Shown here in pieces: positions 5,836 to 42,027 of a DNA stretch of 42,220 nt (its first letter is position 1; each line of letters starts with the position of its first letter). The position numbers were made by a program, and so were the translations under genes. The stretch comes from a virus: the IMG/VR virus record IMGVR_UViG_3300047157_000018, positions 1 to 42,220 of that record. One strand, 5' to 3'. The notes under the pieces were generated by a model. The model searched no databases and was not told the DNA's origin. It saw nothing but the letters and a program-made list of their open reading frames with translations.

Positions 5836-6738
5836 ATGCCTACACAATTCAAAACATATGATGCAACTGCAATCCGTGAGGATTTGTCAGATGTCATCTA
5901 TGATATTTCACCAACGGATACTCCGTTCCTATCCAGTATTACTGGTAAAGGTTCAGTATCTAACACTCTATTTGAGTGGCAAACAGAAGCACTTGCTGCT
6001 GCTGTAATTAATAACTACCATGTTGAAGGAGCTGCTGCTGGTACAGCTGCAACTACTGCGACTGTTCGTGCAACTAACCAAACACAAATTTCTAAGAAAG
6101 TTGTTGAGGTTACTGGTACACACGAAACAGTTAACAACGCTGGTAAGAAGTCAGAAATGGCTCACCAACTAGCAAAGGCTTCTAAAGAGCTTAAGCGTGA
6201 TATGGAAGGTTCACTACTAGCTGACAACGCTGCTGCTGCGGGTAACGCAACAACTGCTCGTGAGACTCGTGGTGCTGCTAACTGGATTACAACTAATGTT
6301 GTAGATGCTGGTACTACTAGTACACATGCTGCTATGACTGAAGCTGATGTTCTTTCGGCTGCTGAAGCAGTATGGACACAAGGCGGTGAAGCGTCTACAA
6401 TCCTACTTGGTGCAACTAACAAGAAGTTAATCACAGCTATGAATGGTCGTGCTGATGCAATTCGCTCAGTAGCAGACAACAACATGACTATCCAAAACTC
6501 AGTTGATGTATATGTATCAGACTTTGGTACTTACAACATTATCATGGATAGATTCTGTGACCAAGATGTTGTATACTTCCTAGACCACGACATGTGGTCA
6601 GTTGACTACTTGCGTGATTTCCAAACTGTGGATATTGCAAAAGAAGGTGACTCAGAGAAGAAGATGCTTCTAGTTGAGTACGGTCTAAGATGTGGCAACG
6701 AAGCTGCCAACGCTAAGATTAGATACACTACAGGTTAA
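5836..6738 (+). CDS. Major capsid protein, SU10-like
   Basis: Protein of 300 aa with the features of the SU10-type major capsid family: an N-terminal MPTQFKTYDATAIREDLSDV, then YDISPTDTPFLSSI and a FEWQTEAL segment. The strong ribosome binding site (AAGGAGATAGGTA) and the enrichment of a small set of codons (many GCT, ACT, GTT) fit a highly expressed gene. The C-terminal half (LLVEYGLRCGNEAANAKI) matches the end of that family. It forms the HK97-fold shell. A hairpin follows the gene at 6750-6773. Confidence 0.9.
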   Translation: MPTQFKTYDATAIREDLSDVIYDISPTDTPFLSSITGKGSVSNTLFEWQTEALAAAVINNYHVEGAAAGTAATTATVRATNQTQISKKVVEVTGTHETVNNAGKKSEMAHQLAKASKELKRDMEGSLLADNAAAAGNATTARETRGAANWITTNVVDAGTTSTHAAMTEADVLSAAEAVWTQGGEASTILLGATNKKLITAMNGRADAIRSVADNNMTIQNSVDVYVSDFGTYNIIMDRFCDQDVVYFLDHDMWSVDYLRDFQTVDIAKEGDSEKKMLLVEYGLRCGNEAANAKIRYTTG

Positions 6739-33143: not shown

Positions 33144-34875
33144 TCCAACTCCTCCCTATTTTAAAATCTCCTGTGATTGGGCAGTTGAGTTTATAATATT
33201 CTGTTGTCATCTCCATAGCATCTACAATCAAGTATCCAATTGCCTCTGCATCATTTGGGCTACACTCAATCTGTATCTCATCATGTATGACACCCAGTTG
33301 CTTATACTTAAAGCCCTCATACTCTGCCATATTATTAAATAGTTCCCATGCTCTTTTACTTATTATAGCACCGGCACTCTGTAGTAGGAAGTTAAGTGAG
33401 GCATGTTGACTCCTTACTCTTATCGTGTCTGCCATCTAATCCTTTTAGGTATCCCTTGTCTGATGCCTTGGCTACCCTTTCTCTAAGTTTCTTAAGTGAG
33501 GGTGTGTTGTTAAGAAAGTTTTCCTTAAGTTTCTTGCCTTCTTCTACACCACCACCTGCTATACTACCTATCTTCTTGTCTCCTGCACCATAGAGAAATG
33601 CATAGATAAATGTCTTAGCCTTATCTCTTGTGTCTAATCCGGCTGACTTTTGGTTGGCAGTGTGTATGTCTCCTGTGAGTAGTTCCTTAGTATAGTTCTC
33701 ATCTCTCATGTAGTGGGCGAGGCATCTAAGTTCTAGTCCCTGAAAGGTCAGCACCTACTAACACCTTATCCTCTGGCACAGTAAACAATGCTCTCATTTC
33801 TGAGCCATACTCCTTGCCACTTGCAGTTACTTGTTGTAGGTTTGGGTTGCTACTGCTCATCCTATGTGTCACAGTTCCCATAGTGTGTACTCTACTATGT
33901 ATCCTACCTGTTGTCTCATCTAAAGCATCAAGCCACGAGTTAATCTGTCCTTGTCTTTTCTGTAACATAAGATAGCGACCAATCAGCTTTGCCTCTGGTA
34001 TTTCTACATCCTTCAATGTGGACTCATCAACTTTAGGTCTGCCAGTTTCAGTAAATACTTCAGGCTTCCAACCATAGTGCATGAGATGTCTGCCTACCTG
34101 TTGCCTACTACCTAAGTTAAGTTCGGGGTAGTGCCAGTAGCCATAGTCTCCTTCTTCGTTTGTATGGCACTGAAGTTCTACCTCTGCTTGGTAGCCTTTA
34201 GTCCTAGTAAAGTCTTTCTTAAATCTATTCTTAACTGGTGTCTTGCTTTTCCATAGGGGTAGAGGCTTGAATGTCTTATGTACTTCTTCCTCTGCATTTC
34301 GTAGGTCATCATTCACCTGTTGTAATATCTTTATTGCACCTCGCTCATCAAAGAGCCAACCATTCTTCTCTTGGATAGTGCATTGTCTCTTGATTGCATA
34401 CTCTAATTCTTTAGCATCTTGGCTTAGTCCTTTCTGTCTTAGTATTTTATACACCTTGCTAGTTATCTCTAGTGTCTCTAATACAATACTCTACCATCTC
34501 TGTGCTTAGCTTTGACCAGTCCTCATGGTCTCCCTTATGATAGCCTAGGTACTCACCCCAGTTAGCTAGTGAGTGACCACCTTCTCTGCGTGGACTGTCA
34601 AGCTGACTCATTATAAGAGTATCCTCTATAGTTACATTGTTAAAGTCATACCCCATGTCTCCTCTAACACAGGGACATCAAAAGCTATACCATTATGAAA
34701 CACTATAGAGTCTCACCTGAGTCTAACCACTCTTGGAAAGCCATTCTCGTTTATTCCCAGACTTGTTCTGGATAGAATACTTAGTTTCCTCAGTGTATAC
34801 ATCTTGCACTGCAATACACCACACCTTAGTGGCTTCTATCCCATCAGTTTCTATGTCACAACTAAAAGTCTGCAT
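33130..34875 (-). CDS. polA: Family A DNA polymerase, six apparent frameshifts
   Basis: A T7-like replicative polymerase with a 3'-5' exonuclease half. The start MQTFSCDIETDG (34875) gives exonuclease motif I (DIET), VFHNGIAFD gives motif II and YCIRD motif III. The polymerase half has motif A (LVGADLSGLELR), motif B (RDKAKTFIYAFLYGAG) and motif C (GVIHDEIQIEC). Motif B carries Tyr at the position equal to E. coli Phe762, as in T7. Frameshifts fall near 34756, 34711, 34652, 34466, 33739 and 33425; the longest intact piece is 33726-34454. The joined protein is about 580 aa. It starts within the end of the primase gene. All catalytic motifs are intact. Confidence 0.88.
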
Positions 34876-36976: not shown

Positions 36977-37160
36977 CTTTACATCTCCTAATAGTTAACA
37001 TTTAATTTTACATCTAGCAGTAATAATACTACTAAAAGTGCAGTAGAAAAAATGGAAGTAAAAACTACTACACTCTTAGTAATACTAAGCATTAACATTG
37101 ACTCATCTTAACATTTGGAATGTTGTTGGTGGTGGGTTCAATGTATTTCTTTCTTAGAAT
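36977..37160 (-). promoter_or_regulatory. Structured leader of the ssb operon
   Basis: About 180 nt lie between the predicted start of transcription and the ssb ATG, without a convincing gene. In minus-strand sense it holds a perfect CTTAGTA-T-TACTAAG palindrome and a 9-bp stem GTGTAGTAG / CTACTGCAC around a T-rich loop. Such leaders may control translation, for example autogenously by the ssDNA-binding protein. No known riboswitch consensus is recognised. Confidence 0.5.
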
Positions 37161-37243: not shown

Positions 37244-37268
37244 AAAAAAATGGGGGATTCGAACCCCC
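37244..37268 (-). terminator. Terminator with a tRNA T-arm-like hairpin
   Basis: On the minus strand GGGGG-TTCGAAT-CCCCC, then A and seven Ts, 23 bases after the stop of the 37291-37527 gene. The 5-bp GC stem plus T-run makes a rho-independent terminator. The hairpin is also an exact T-arm (5-bp stem, loop TTCGAAT), but the upstream sequence does not fold into the rest of a tRNA. Confidence 0.72.
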
Positions 37269-39117: not shown

Positions 39118-39127
39118 ATTATGACTC

Positions 39128-39171
39128 CTAGTTATAAAGAGTTAGGACACTCCGAAGAATGCCCTAAGTTT
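39128..39171 (-). other. Hairpin module with UUCG loop
   Basis: One of five closely related long hairpins. In minus-strand sense, AAAAACTTAGGGCATTC, TTCG loop, GAGTGTCCTAACTCTTTATAAC, CTAGGAG. The 3' arm ends at the ribosome binding site of the gene at 39117. Arms are shared with the modules at 40624-40683 and 41073-41126. Confidence 0.72.
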
Positions 39172-39570
39172 TTACCACCAACTATCATAAACTACTTTGT
39201 AGCCATCTTTAATTGCTTGTAGTCCATTCTTCACAAACAAAAGGTCATAAGCATCTTGTTCCTTAACTTCTTCTGTGTCATAGTCATAACTATCTTGACC
39301 AAAAAAGAAGCCTTGAGTATCGGGTAAGTTCTTCTCTTTAATATACTTCTGTAATCTATTGAGGTCAATTTCGTCCAACTCAATAGGAACACAATTAAAT
39401 ACTTGGGGAATATCGCCATTTGGATTTGGGCAACCCTGTTCTTCCCAAAGCATTTGCATAAACCCATGCAGTCTATTATGTTTTCTCCAGTTGGCAAGGT
39501 CAACATCATTTTCATTCTCTTGCCTTAAATCTTCCGATTTAGTTTTCCACGCATACATATCTAATCCCAT
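39172..39570 (-). CDS. Conserved phage protein, 132 aa (misnamed phosphoglycerate kinase)
   Basis: MGLDMYAWKTKSEDLRQENE with DLANWRKHNRLHGFMQMLWE, FNCVPIELDEIDLNRLQKYI and LPDTQGFFFGQDSYDYDT. These are the landmarks of a family found in many phages and some bacteria, often labelled phosphoglycerate kinase without evidence. It has no kinase fold motif visible. Upstream is a 280-base stretch without a gene. Confidence 0.8.
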   Translation of the reverse strand: MGLDMYAWKTKSEDLRQENENDVDLANWRKHNRLHGFMQMLWEEQGCPNPNGDIPQVFNCVPIELDEIDLNRLQKYIKEKNLPDTQGFFFGQDSYDYDTEEVKEQDAYDLLFVKNGLQAIKDGYKVVYDSWW

Positions 39571-39853
39571 ATTTTTTCCTTTTCTTAGTTAATAGGAGTA
39601 TAGACTATCGCCCTCATGAGTTAATAGCAATAGCCTATATTTCTAACAACTAACATGGATTGTACAAACTCATGGTTAGTGAGCAGTTTTTACTATGCTA
39701 TTGCATTTGTCATACTCAGGACATTCCATTGGTAGTTTTTAGGACTTCCACCTAGTGTTACCCAGCACTTGTGAGATGTAGTAAGGTACTCTTAATGTTA
39801 TACTACAAATTTAGAAGCAGTTTAGTAAGTCATACTTAGGACTCGGAGATATT
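39571..39853. other. Gene-free stretch with diverged internal repeats
   Basis: No gene is convincing here. A 14-base unit GTCATACTCAGGAC (39709-39722) recurs as GTCATACTTAGGAC at 39829-39842. The preceding AGCAGTTT also recurs (39682 and 39816 region). A hairpin lies at 39599-39639. The stretch could hold a small RNA or be the remnant of a deleted gene. Confidence 0.4.
39599..39639 (-). other. Hairpin module-like element before the 39570 gene
   Basis: In minus-strand sense TATAGGCTATTG ... CGATAGTCTATA (39639-39628 / 39610-39599) pairs over 12 bases, two of them G-U type. It is followed by CTCCTATTAACTAAG and then the AAAAGG before the ATG. It resembles the other modules in layout but lacks their conserved linker. 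Confidence 0.5.
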
Positions 39854-40027
39854 CTATATCAACCTTGAAAAGAAATTGAATTGGTTGTTCAACTGTATAA
39901 ATACCTGTACTTGCCATATCAATATAGCACTGTTTAGTATTATACCTAAAAGCCCAATCCAAACCATTATCCTAGCAAATAATTCTTTTTGGTCGTTGCT
40001 AAGCCAACCTCGTTTAGTATTTCTCAT
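39854..40027 (-). CDS. Small membrane protein, 57 aa
   Basis: The start at 40027 (MRNTKRGWLSNDQKELFARI) is chosen because AAGGAGGAAC lies just before it. One long hydrophobic segment (MVWIGLLGIILNSAILIWQV) spans the membrane once. It overlaps the end of the upstream gene. Unknown. Confidence 0.65.
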   Translation of the reverse strand: MRNTKRGWLSNDQKELFARIMVWIGLLGIILNSAILIWQVQVFIQLNNQFNFFSRLI

Positions 40028-40205
40028 TAAGTTCCTCCTTGCCATAAGGCATTTCATAAAATAGTGGAAAAGTAGTTCCCTTTTTCCATGTGTCATCTAG
40101 ACAGGGTGCTAATTTCTCTTCTAAGAATTGGGTGGGATTATAAGTATGACAACCCTCATTTCCCTTTAAATGATAATAGCATTCATTACAACGAAATAAT
40201 TTCAT
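40014..40205 (-). CDS. Small Cys-containing early protein, 63 aa
   Basis: The start at 40205 (MKLFRCNECYYHLKGNEGCH) overlaps the upstream stop (TAATG). CNEC, GC-H and a later C give a possible zinc site (C-x2-C then C-x-C/H type). Likely a small zinc-binding host-takeover protein; function unknown. Confidence 0.66.
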   Translation of the reverse strand: MKLFRCNECYYHLKGNEGCHTYNPTQFLEEKLAPCLDDTWKKGTTFPLFYEMPYGKEELNEKY

Positions 40206-40420
40206 TATATCTCTCCCCAACCTGCTGAAGCTAACCAATCATTATCTGCCTTGACAGAAGCCTCATGGTTTCTAATACTTCTCATCTTTTCCTTATCGTT
40301 CTCGCAATCATCACAAATTGCAATCCTACCGTAAGGGTTAGTATATCCACACTTGGTTAATACTGGCTTATAATCCATGCCAGTATCAACAAAGTATTCT
40401 ACTTGATTTTCACATCTCAT
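40205..40420 (-). CDS. Small Cys-containing early protein, 71 aa
   Basis: MRCENQVEYFVDTGMDYKPV, then TKCGYTNPYGRIAICDDCEN. The cysteines at residues 3, 24, 36 and 39 suggest a zinc ribbon. The start overlaps the upstream stop (ATGA), with AGGAGTTAGCTT as ribosome binding site. Unknown. Confidence 0.68.
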   Translation of the reverse strand: MRCENQVEYFVDTGMDYKPVLTKCGYTNPYGRIAICDDCENDKEKMRSIRNHEASVKADNDWLASAGWGEI

Positions 40421-40614
40421 AAGCTAACTCCTAATGTTTCTTCAATTTTTGATAGTTCCTTGTAATCATATTTACTTGAACAATGATTAGCATAAAATAT
40501 GACAAAGTCATCAAAACTAATAGCACAATGTTCTAGTATATCTGCCAAGTTTCCCAACTCAACCCAACCATTGTTATACAAATCTTCTATTAAATCCATT
40601 TGCATTTTTTCCAT
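40417..40614 (-). CDS. Small early protein, 65 aa, unknown
   Basis: MEKMQMDLIEDLYNNGWVEL, then an acidic region with HCAISFDDFVIFYANHCSSK. It follows hairpin module 40624-40683 with CTAGGAG as ribosome binding site. No family recognised. Confidence 0.68.
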   Translation of the reverse strand: MEKMQMDLIEDLYNNGWVELGNLADILEHCAISFDDFVIFYANHCSSKYDYKELSKIEETLGVSL

Positions 40615-40623
40615 TTTGTTTCT

Positions 40624-40683
40624 CCTAGTTATAAAGAGTTTGGACAGTAGCCCTCGATACTGCCCAAAGTTTTTACAACTATA
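40624..40683 (-). other. Hairpin module before the 40614 gene
   Basis: In minus-strand sense GTAAAAACTTTGGGCAGTAT pairs with TACTGTCCAAACTCTTTATA, ending at CTAGGAG, the ribosome binding site of the 40614 gene. The 5' arm begins inside the stop region of the upstream gene. The 19-base linker AACTCTTTATAACTAGGAG is identical in modules 39128-39171 and 41073-41126. Confidence 0.75.
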
Positions 40684-41062
40684 TTAAATCATTACGAACA
40701 CAATATTTAATGTATTTGTCATACTCTGTATTGATTTCCTCGGCAGTAATATCATAATGTTTTAATGCCTCGATTGTATCGCTTGAGTCGGTATATTGTG
40801 CTTCATGATTTTGTAACGCTCTCCAAATAATATCTTTGTTTGAGTTTCTTTTCTTGTCAAACTTAGCTAAACTTCGGCTAGTATCATTAATCGCCTTTAC
40901 TAGTTCCTTGTATTGGCTTTTTGGGGCATATAATCCTTGCCCCAGATTAACATATGGCTTTAAATGTTCTTTGTATTGCTCGTAGAATTGTTCTTTACTG
41001 AATGCAAAGAAGCCATTAAAAGCCTCGATTGTATTACCTATTATATGTTTATCGCTTTCCAT
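40679..41062 (-). CDS. Early protein, 127 aa, unknown
   Basis: The start at 41062 (MESDKHIIGNTIEAFNGFFA) follows hairpin module 41073-41126 and CTAGGAG. The protein is charged and helical (FYEQYKEHLKPYVNLGQGLY, then a Lys-rich middle). It is the largest early gene in this run. No family recognised. Confidence 0.7.
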   Translation of the reverse strand: MESDKHIIGNTIEAFNGFFAFSKEQFYEQYKEHLKPYVNLGQGLYAPKSQYKELVKAINDTSRSLAKFDKKRNSNKDIIWRALQNHEAQYTDSSDTIEALKHYDITAEEINTEYDKYIKYCVRNDLI

Positions 41063-41072
41063 TATATTTCTC

Positions 41073-41126
41073 CTAGTTATAAAGAGTTGAGGCACTCTAT
41101 GAATGCCCCAAGTTTTTAAAACTTAG
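41073..41126 (-). other. Hairpin module before the 41062 gene
   Basis: In minus-strand sense CTAAGTTTTAAAAACTTGG and GGCATTC pair with GAGTGCC and TCAACTCTTTATAACTAG over about 24 bases, with a short loop. The ribosome binding site AGGAG directly follows. The 5' arm overlaps the last bases of the upstream gene. Compared with the other modules the mid-stem bases differ in both arms so that pairing is kept. Confidence 0.75.
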
Positions 41127-41268
41127 ATTGAGCCTTTAAAAAAGCCTCTTTAATATCAATCCGAAGAGGATACTTTTTATCTTCGCCACAACTAAAAGTG
41201 TAAACTTTCGCCCTACCGTTTTTATGATTTGTCTTTGTAACCTTGTAACCATTTATTACTTTTTGCAT
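41116..41268 (-). CDS. Small early protein, 50 aa, unknown
   Basis: MQKVINGYKVTKTNHKNGRA, then KVYTFSCGEDKKYPLRIDIK. A basic beta-rich N-half and a helical end. The start overlaps the upstream stop (TAATG), and AGGGAGAAATATA precedes it. It matches the small early genes in style. Function unknown. Confidence 0.66.
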   Translation of the reverse strand: MQKVINGYKVTKTNHKNGRAKVYTFSCGEDKKYPLRIDIKEAFLKAQSKF

Positions 41269-41513
41269 TATATTTCTCCCTTGTGAAAACTTTGGTAATG
41301 CTTTTCAAGTTCTCCACTATGAAACATGGAGAGCAATTTGGTTGCTTGTTTTTTGCTAATACTCCATTCGTCAACCATATCACCTCGTACACCGAACATA
41401 TTTACTTCGCCCGTATCTCTTAATTGCATTAACCAATTGTACATCTGCAATTTTAAAAGTGGGTGGAGTGGTTTGTCTGGGTTTGTCATTTCTTTGTATG
41501 CTTCTTGTTGCAT
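41268..41513 (-). CDS. Small early protein, 81 aa, unknown
   Basis: The start at 41513 (MQQEAYKEMTNPDKPLHPLL) follows AAGGAGAAACAC; upstream in-frame codons belong to the hairpin module. The rest includes MFGVRGDMVDEWSISKKQAT, where EWSISKKQATKLLSM looks like a helix-turn-helix end. A small DNA-binding regulator is possible but unproven. Confidence 0.66.
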   Translation of the reverse strand: MQQEAYKEMTNPDKPLHPLLKLQMYNWLMQLRDTGEVNMFGVRGDMVDEWSISKKQATKLLSMFHSGELEKHYQSFHKGEI

Positions 41514-41527
41514 TGTGTTTCTCCTTA

Positions 41528-41609
41528 CAGTTAAAAAGAGTTTGCACACTCAGAATATATATGCCACGATCGTGGCACGAATTCCAAGAGTGCAAAGTTT
41601 TCCTAACTG
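41528..41609 (-). other. Longest hairpin module, with a 16-bp palindrome
   Basis: In minus-strand sense CAGTTAGGAAAACTTTGCAC pairs with GTGTGCAAACTCTTTTTAAC and TG, about 22 bases with small bulges, enclosing the perfect palindrome TGCCACGATCGTGGCA (41562-41577). The 3' arm leads into TAAGGAG, the ribosome binding site of the 41513 gene. Confidence 0.72.
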
Positions 41610-41809
41610 AACATTGATTGCATTGCTTGAAGTCTTTGTGGAATTACTACTGTTGAATTACAAAGATTGCAACACTCGTCGTCGTCTCGCTCGGTGTCTG
41701 GGTTGTTCCCAAATCCACTAAACCACTCCAAGCAGTAGCAACACGACCAGTAGGTTTCATTACCATGTTTGAGGGTTTCGGTTGGGTGGTATGTATCGTT
41801 GACTTGCAT
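41603..41809 (-). CDS. First early gene, Cys-rich, 68 aa
   Basis: MQVNDTYHPTETLKHGNETY, then WSCCYCLEWF and DDDECCNLCNSTVV. Two Cys clusters (CCYC and CCNLC) give a likely zinc ribbon. It is the first gene after the right-end promoter and boxA, preceded by hairpin 41823-41875 and GAGGAG. A host-takeover role is suggested by position only. Confidence 0.68.
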   Translation of the reverse strand: MQVNDTYHPTETLKHGNETYWSCCYCLEWFSGFGNNPDTERDDDECCNLCNSTVVIPQRLQAMQSMFS

Positions 41810-41822
41810 ATGATATCTCCTC

Positions 41823-41875
41823 TAGTTTAAACGCAGTAAGACACATAAAGAATATGCCTTACAACTTTTAAACTA
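41823..41875 (-). other. First hairpin module of the early block
   Basis: In minus-strand sense TAGTTTAAA ... GTAAG ... CTTAC ... TTTAAACTA (arms 41875-41867 / 41831-41823 and 41862-41858 / 41840-41836) with a small internal loop, followed by GAGGAG. It is the most diverged of the closely related modules, but the GGCA / TGTC mid-stem pairing seen in the others is kept. Confidence 0.62.
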
Positions 41876-41950
41876 ATCCACAGATTATTATGTAAATAAT
41901 CATGGACAGTACAAGCAAGGATTTATTGCCCCTCTTGTAACATAAGCAGA

Positions 41951-41963
41951 TTTTTAAAGAGCA
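41951..41963 (-). promoter_or_regulatory. boxA-like antitermination element
   Basis: In minus-strand sense TGCTCTTTAAAAA. The boxA of E. coli rRNA leaders is TGCTCTTTAACA, so 10 of the first 10 bases agree, and the following ATCTG also resembles some rRNA leaders. It sits about 30 nt after the predicted transcription start, as in rRNA operons. It would recruit the NusB-NusE complex. Confidence 0.62.
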
Positions 41964-41999: not shown

Positions 42000-42027
42000 A
42001 GGATACATGAAACCTAAGAAAAGTCAA
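42000..42027 (-). promoter_or_regulatory. Right-end early promoter
   Basis: On the minus strand TTGACT (42027-42022), a 16-base spacer and TATCCT (42005-42000). Transcription would start near 41993 and read boxA, the hairpin modules and the early genes. The -10 is only a 4 of 6 match, so other start sites are possible. The rest of 41876-42082 shows no gene. Confidence 0.6.

Follow-up and report, generated by a model that had tools for sequence, protein, structure and literature searches.

The window analysed here is the whole of the 42,220-base IMG/VR virus contig IMGVR_UViG_3300047157_000018, which encodes on its minus strand a family of six long RNA hairpins, modules M1 to M6, each placed ahead of an early phage gene. 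On the plus strand lie genes for packaging and structure (terminase, portal, scaffold and an SU10-type major capsid protein); the minus strand encodes a primase-helicase, DNA polymerase A, a Cas4-like exonuclease and ribonucleotide reductase and, upstream of these, a series of small early genes to which no function can be assigned. The terminase is nearest to those of Pelagibacter phages (~54%), and one virion protein is nearest to those of Pseudomonas podoviruses (~39% or less). Megablast of the window against phage genomes gave no match, and a search of genome contigs for the host with the primase found no relative. Related loci were gathered by primase searches, 25 at first and then 67, nearly all of them 64–98% identical.

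The earlier note on this DNA had recognized five modules and a 'looser relative', all of which are present on the minus strand; the relative (39654–39584) is in fact a full member and not a loose one, and for it and the module at 39182–39127 the outer stem had been missed. With lower stems and 3-nt flanks included, M1 (41821–41877, minus strand, as are all six) lies in the operon leader ahead of the first early gene, 41809–41603 (cmsearch expectation value (E) 4.7e-7; fold −25.4 kcal/mol), and M2 (41526–41611) precedes gene 41513–41268 (E 9.8e-7; fold −36.9 kcal/mol). M3 (41072–41126; E 1.9e-11) precedes gene 41062–40679 and contains in its 5′ arm the stop codon of gene 41268–41116, M4 (40624–40683; E 2.6e-12) precedes gene 40614–40417, and M5 (39584–39654; E 1.2e-11), which follows a non-coding stretch with the pseudoknot-like units described below, precedes gene 39570–39172. 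The stop codon of this last gene is contained in the 5′ arm of M6 (39127–39182; E 1e-10), which precedes gene 39117–38878. The model E-values in the window thus run from 3e-12 to 1e-6. The protein encoded after M3 found no relative when used as a query, and an Rfam search of the modules gave no match at the gathering threshold, the only hit being a small nucleolar RNA (snoRNA) at chance level (E 0.72).

Each of the six modules folds as a single long hairpin with a common plan. A 9-bp lower stem, whose 5′ arm contains a stop codon, leads to a symmetric 3 × 3 centre and an upper stem of ~11 bp; after a loop of 3 to 34 nt come the complementary 3′ arm, a Shine–Dalgarno sequence and a start codon. 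The consensus reads AGTTGTAAA-AAC-TAAGGGC...GCCTTTA-CTC-TTTATAACT-AGG. The 19-base stretch AACTCTTTATAACTAGGAG, reported earlier as shared by three modules, occurs exactly three times in the window (39125–39143, 40622–40640 and 41070–41088). In the central triad, an A-U pair is preceded by an A·C mismatch and followed by a mismatch that is either C·C or A·C. With only these two fixed mismatches, placed near the centre around a standard pair, the module RNA forms an almost unbroken helix of ~23 bp. Among the 58 distinct sequences that make up our 66 aligned copies, all of which have the two-turn design of 9 bp + 3 + 11 bp, the middle pair of the triad is standard in 57, with A-U replaced by G-C or U-G in some. 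The lower stem and the central triad are kept in sequence, beyond what pairing alone would demand. The triad of M1 is divergent (GUU/UGC), and in a few copies, in relatives L185 and L191, the centre is fully paired (AAG/CUU). Loops vary, that of M2 being long and containing an extra palindrome. As a separate observation, the M5 loop CTATTGCTATTAACTCATGAGGGCGATAG is almost invariant in relatives, while the loops of the other modules vary, and in L020 (~6176–6250) the same loop sits on an outer stem that has been wholly replaced by a continuous helix; this invariance suggests an extra function for the M5 loop.

Compensating changes and a selected RNA structure, as the earlier note had claimed, are borne out by the alignments. 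In an alignment of 19 modules with loops trimmed, double-sided changes occur in 15 of the 20 pairs and the covariation score is 0.522, as against 0.182 for shuffled alignments and at most 0.109 for slid partners; with all 66 modules, 16 of the 20 pairs show double-sided changes and the score is 0.474, as against 0.159 (shuffled) and 0.083 (slid partners). The fractions of paired cells, 94.7% and 96.8%, are biased upwards, the alignment having been fitted to the structure and some members gathered by a scan that demands pairing; this bias weighs less on the double-sided changes and on the flanks, which are conserved in sequence. Under a tree-based null, applied to what are short module sequences, E falls below 0.05 for three of the 20 pairs and for none of the other column pairs. 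In the sense orientation there are 145 G-U cells and 5 A-C cells. Selection therefore acts on the transcribed sense RNA, that is, on the early mRNA, because the G-U cells would become mismatches on the other strand.

The covariance model built from the 19 modules, the kind of search of related phages that had been proposed, recovered all six modules of the window as well as copies in many relatives. The same element is present in ~30 related metagenomic phages, where its copies are confined to the early region and number up to seven per genome (L028). Modules occur both in the group of the window (84–98% primase identity) and in many distant phages (64–78%), among which the upper stems are very different. 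In 211 kb of Markov-shuffled sequence, six module-like structures arise. In pattern scans of IMG/VR, the modules that a model confirmed belonged mostly to this phage group, and the majority of loci in the first scan were chance matches; the pattern-scan loci L218, L219, L223, L225, L228 and L231 were left out of the kinship assessment.

The placement of the modules is as regular as their structure. A start codon lies 12–19 nt past the lower stem in 64 of the 66 copies, and where the upstream open reading frame is at least 40 aa long, 43 of 44 stop codons end in the 5′ arm, no more than 8 nt into the lower stem. The modules thus occupy junctions of the polycistronic early genes, with a ribosome binding site downstream and a sigma-70-like promoter at the head of the operon. 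The genes downstream, 64 in all, belong to 24 unrelated families, including C5 cytosine DNA methyltransferase, GP88-like and DUF7178 proteins. The element therefore serves the message and not one particular gene.

This arrangement recalls phage T7, in whose early RNA the host ribonuclease III (RNase III) cuts co-transcriptionally at five intergenic hairpins (PMC4858673). Site R1.1 of T7 is cut on one strand, at nt 5887, and full complementarity leads to double-strand cleavage (PMC8708148). The genomes used for comparison were those of T7 (L033) and of T3 (L234), in which RNase III sites are annotated. For the T7 sites besides R1.1 we used coordinates that we take to be those of the published map, and hairpins were observed at these positions in the T7 sequence. 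The first model, R1, had no match in T7. A broader model, R2, which was built from the new phages alone and contains no T7 sequence, gave four matches on the two strands of T7 within E 10, of which rank 1 is R1.3, rank 2 is R6.5 and rank 4 is the upper stem of R1.1; in T3 its top match is the annotated R6.5. In a hairpin-versus-hairpin test, the first seven upper-stem pairs were scored in known sites and in other strong hairpins. By pair identity, the T7 R sites were separated from the other hairpins with an area under the curve (AUC) of 0.85, equalled by 9 of 1,000 column-permuted models, and the T3 sites with an AUC of 0.96, equalled by 1 of 1,000. In their base pairs, the upper stems of the modules thus resemble those of the T7 and T3 sites.

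The likeness extends to the design of the hairpins. Like the T7 and T3 sites (R0.3, R0.5, R1, R1.1, R1.3, R4.7, R6.5 and R18.5), the modules are intergenic hairpins in a polycistronic early mRNA, with an upper stem of ~9–11 bp that has AAGG(U/G)C..G(C/G)CCUU pairs near its base, a non-canonical centre, a lower stem of ~8–9 bp, a start codon close downstream and, in the 3′ arm, CCUUUA just before the loop. Unlike those sites, they incorporate a stop codon in the 5′ arm and recur as near-identical repeats inside one genome. The phages themselves are not T7-like: a search that detects the RNA polymerase of T7 itself found no T7-type RNA polymerase in the window or in two relatives. We conclude that the modules probably work like T7 R sites, a likeness of function that need not imply homology or common descent.

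We propose that the modules act as punctuation of the polycistronic early mRNA, namely as RNase III processing signals of the T7 type, a reading to which we assign a probability of roughly 70%. Processing sites as in T7 had been one of the candidates of the earlier note and are the best supported among them, by the two-turn architecture, the early-gene position and an upper-stem similarity that goes beyond hairpins in general. We infer RNase III as the enzyme, together with the position of its cut, the single nick and the effects on message stability and translation. In the proposed mechanism, the early operon would be transcribed by the host RNA polymerase from a sigma-70-like promoter (TTGACT-16-TATCCT, 42000–42027, minus strand), which lies at the same position, with better −35 and −10 elements, in L007, L016 and L028. 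At each non-overlapping gene junction the RNA would fold into the ~23-bp helix, its lower stem starting in the preceding stop codon. Host RNase III would then bind the two helical turns and cut centrally, presumably in or adjacent to the 3′ CUC, and the two mismatches would probably confine it to a single nick, a part played in T7 by the internal loop. The message upstream would be left with a stable hairpin at its 3′ end, and the one downstream would begin ~20–30 nt before the AUG, with a short leader and a Shine–Dalgarno sequence of its own.

Several observations weigh against this proposal. The R2 matches have E-values of 0.8, 3.7 and 6.4 in T7 and 1.4 in T3, so that none is significant alone and none falls below 0.5. 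The reciprocal model R3, built from the T7 and T3 sites, finds no module in the window and gives weak partial matches in three relatives. The centre of the modules is a symmetric A-C/A-U/C-C triad, whereas the T7 sites have an asymmetric internal loop as a defining feature, that of R1.1 being 4/5 (PMC6121014). The fully paired AAG/CUU copies are predicted to be cut on both strands. A phage-encoded RNase III was looked for in this phage and not found. Finally, the earlier note had held that the modules would be mere repeated sequence if covariation were absent or if related phages lacked the structures; the covariation and the spread described above speak otherwise, with the exception of a subgroup at ~80% primase identity (L022, L024, L029, L030 and kin), which has other early genes and no modules.

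The strongest rival to RNase III processing, in our view unlikely, is that the modules are sites for some other phage or host RNA-binding protein, or uncut insulators that stop 3′ exonucleases and keep the ribosome traffic of neighbouring genes apart. The sequence conservation of the lower stem and central triad is what a protein site would lead one to expect, and one element stands ahead of many genes; however, the two-turn helix, the near-central non-Watson–Crick triad and the T7/T3 ranking fit RNase III better, and no candidate phage RNA-binding protein is found among the identified families. Much less probable is a translation switch, also raised earlier, in which the ribosome binding site would be masked until the hairpin is melted, bound or cut. 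Although the lower stem ends a few bases from the Shine–Dalgarno sequence and the nearby stem may hinder ribosome entry, the Shine–Dalgarno sequence lies outside the stem, and its mean unpaired probability is 0.53 in the intact RNA and 0.56 after a simulated cut.

We give still less credence to the suggestion that the modules are nut- or boxA-like antitermination sites. It draws on the resemblance of CTCTTTATAAC to boxA and on a real boxA in the operon leader, where the core GCTCTTTA within TTGCTCTTTAAAAATCTG lies between the promoter and M1 (41955–41962, minus strand) and is conserved in relatives. In the modules, however, the motif CTCTTTA occurs in just 23 of the 58 distinct copies; other copies have different letters that retain pairing (CCCTTTATTA, CTTGTTATAAC and CTCCTATTAAC); and the motif spans the triad and the paired lower stem, whereas boxA acts single-stranded. 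The core of the bacterial rrn boxA thus appears in some 3′ arms, but it is base-paired and unconserved there. The readings that remain fare worse. Intrinsic terminators or attenuators are very improbable: three modules match a loose terminator scan, but there is no U tract (a mean of 0.62 T in the 10 nt past the lower stem), the U residues are concentrated in the 3′ arm, which is paired, and one terminator per junction would silence the operon. That the modules are DNA-level repeats without an RNA role, for example recombination joints that shuffle early genes, is hardly credible, since the excess of G-U over A-C and the strict orientation towards stop and start codons indicate selection on sense RNA, although similar modules do precede different genes in related phages and are possible crossover points, so that recombination could be a side effect of the repeats.

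Other RNA and promoter elements lie nearby. The boxA of the early leader is kept in L007 (1539), L016 (6167), L017 (1883) and L028 (4977), and in L013 (5228) and L014 (3690) a boxA stands in a second promoter leader. The position of this rrn-type boxA (TTGCTCTTTAAAAATCTG or GAGGCTCTTTAACAATCTAATG) just past early phage promoters suggests that phage operons undergo antitermination at boxA through NusB/S10 and that the host is perhaps gammaproteobacterial. In the operon that follows, that of replication, the leader contains after its promoter (37195–37167) a second long hairpin of ~22–24 bp (37004–37088, minus strand) with CTTCC in its loop. Equivalents occur in L022, L024, L029, L030, L172, L175, L177, L185, L193 and others, and hence also in the subgroup without modules; in many relatives this hairpin has a central A-C mismatch, at the tenth pair counted from the loop, and shows two-sided compensatory changes. 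It may be a substrate of RNase III, with a sequence of a different type.

The non-coding stretch before M5 (39844–39680, minus strand) contains units that resemble H-type pseudoknots (~39844–39814 and 39724–39680), one to three of which are also found per genome in L007, L009, L013, L014, L016, L018, L020, L025, L028, L155–L157, L175, L186 and L187. Each unit has a covarying stem of 3–6 bp around the loop CURAGYAW, and the URAGYA of this loop pairs with AAACUGCUYA further downstream; 92.9% of cells are paired, 6 of 11 pairs are changed on both sides, and the score is 0.33, as against 0.14 after shuffling. The combination of loop and stem occurs 65 times in the sense and 13 times in the antisense orientation. 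An Rfam search of the units gave no match, and in form only they resemble the RNA repeats of type III antitoxins or a small riboswitch. With the modules, the boxA, the second hairpin and these units, the early region is therefore rich in structured RNA.

Two further observations concern the minus strand. At 37268–37245, just before the second promoter, GGGGGTTCGAATCCCCC is followed by a T run, a combination that resembles the T-arm of a tRNA put to use as a terminator; a similar T-arm-like hairpin is present in the non-coding RNA of L155–L157 (L155 ~1000, L157 ~5235), and ARAGORN found no tRNA. At 34454–33130, DNA polymerase A is broken into three overlapping frames, recognized as Pfam and PHROG pieces, and L028 has a single intact frame of 554 aa at the equivalent place; the split is probably due to assembly frameshift errors, or else the gene is broken.

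To our knowledge, RNase III processing as a general means of dividing polycistronic phage mRNA has been described mainly for T7 and its close relatives. The leader of the lambda N gene likewise has an RNase III-sensitive hairpin upstream of an early phage gene. The N mRNA is regulated by RNase III (PMC8708148). This leader, however, is a single site in an autoregulatory nut circuit, whereas the modules form up to seven repeats per genome. CUUCGG-type intergenic hairpins of T4-like and phiEco32-like phages, which affect mRNA ends or stability (PMC8948821), resemble the modules in lying between genes, ahead of phage genes, but they have a short stem and a stable tetraloop, whereas the modules have a variable loop on a conserved long stem.

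These comparisons bear on what the modules may be. Only tentatively, and with less confidence than we place in RNase III processing itself, we suggest that they are a new repeated RNA punctuation element, one that arrived by convergence at signals of the T7 RNase III type in phages that have no T7-type RNA polymerase. On the RNase III reading, a different phage group carries a signal of the T7 kind, as a portable unit fused to a stop codon and a Shine–Dalgarno sequence and placed ahead of at least 24 gene families. Were the enzyme not RNase III, the modules would represent a new phage system of mRNA processing or protein binding. The selection of targets by RNase III is described as still poorly understood (PMC8708148), and the 58 natural variants, with their fixed central triad and some fully paired centres, make single versus double cleavage testable with existing assays. 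If the modules are indeed such a convergent element, these dozens of natural substrate variants would reveal the sequence and mismatch rules of single-strand cleavage by RNase III.

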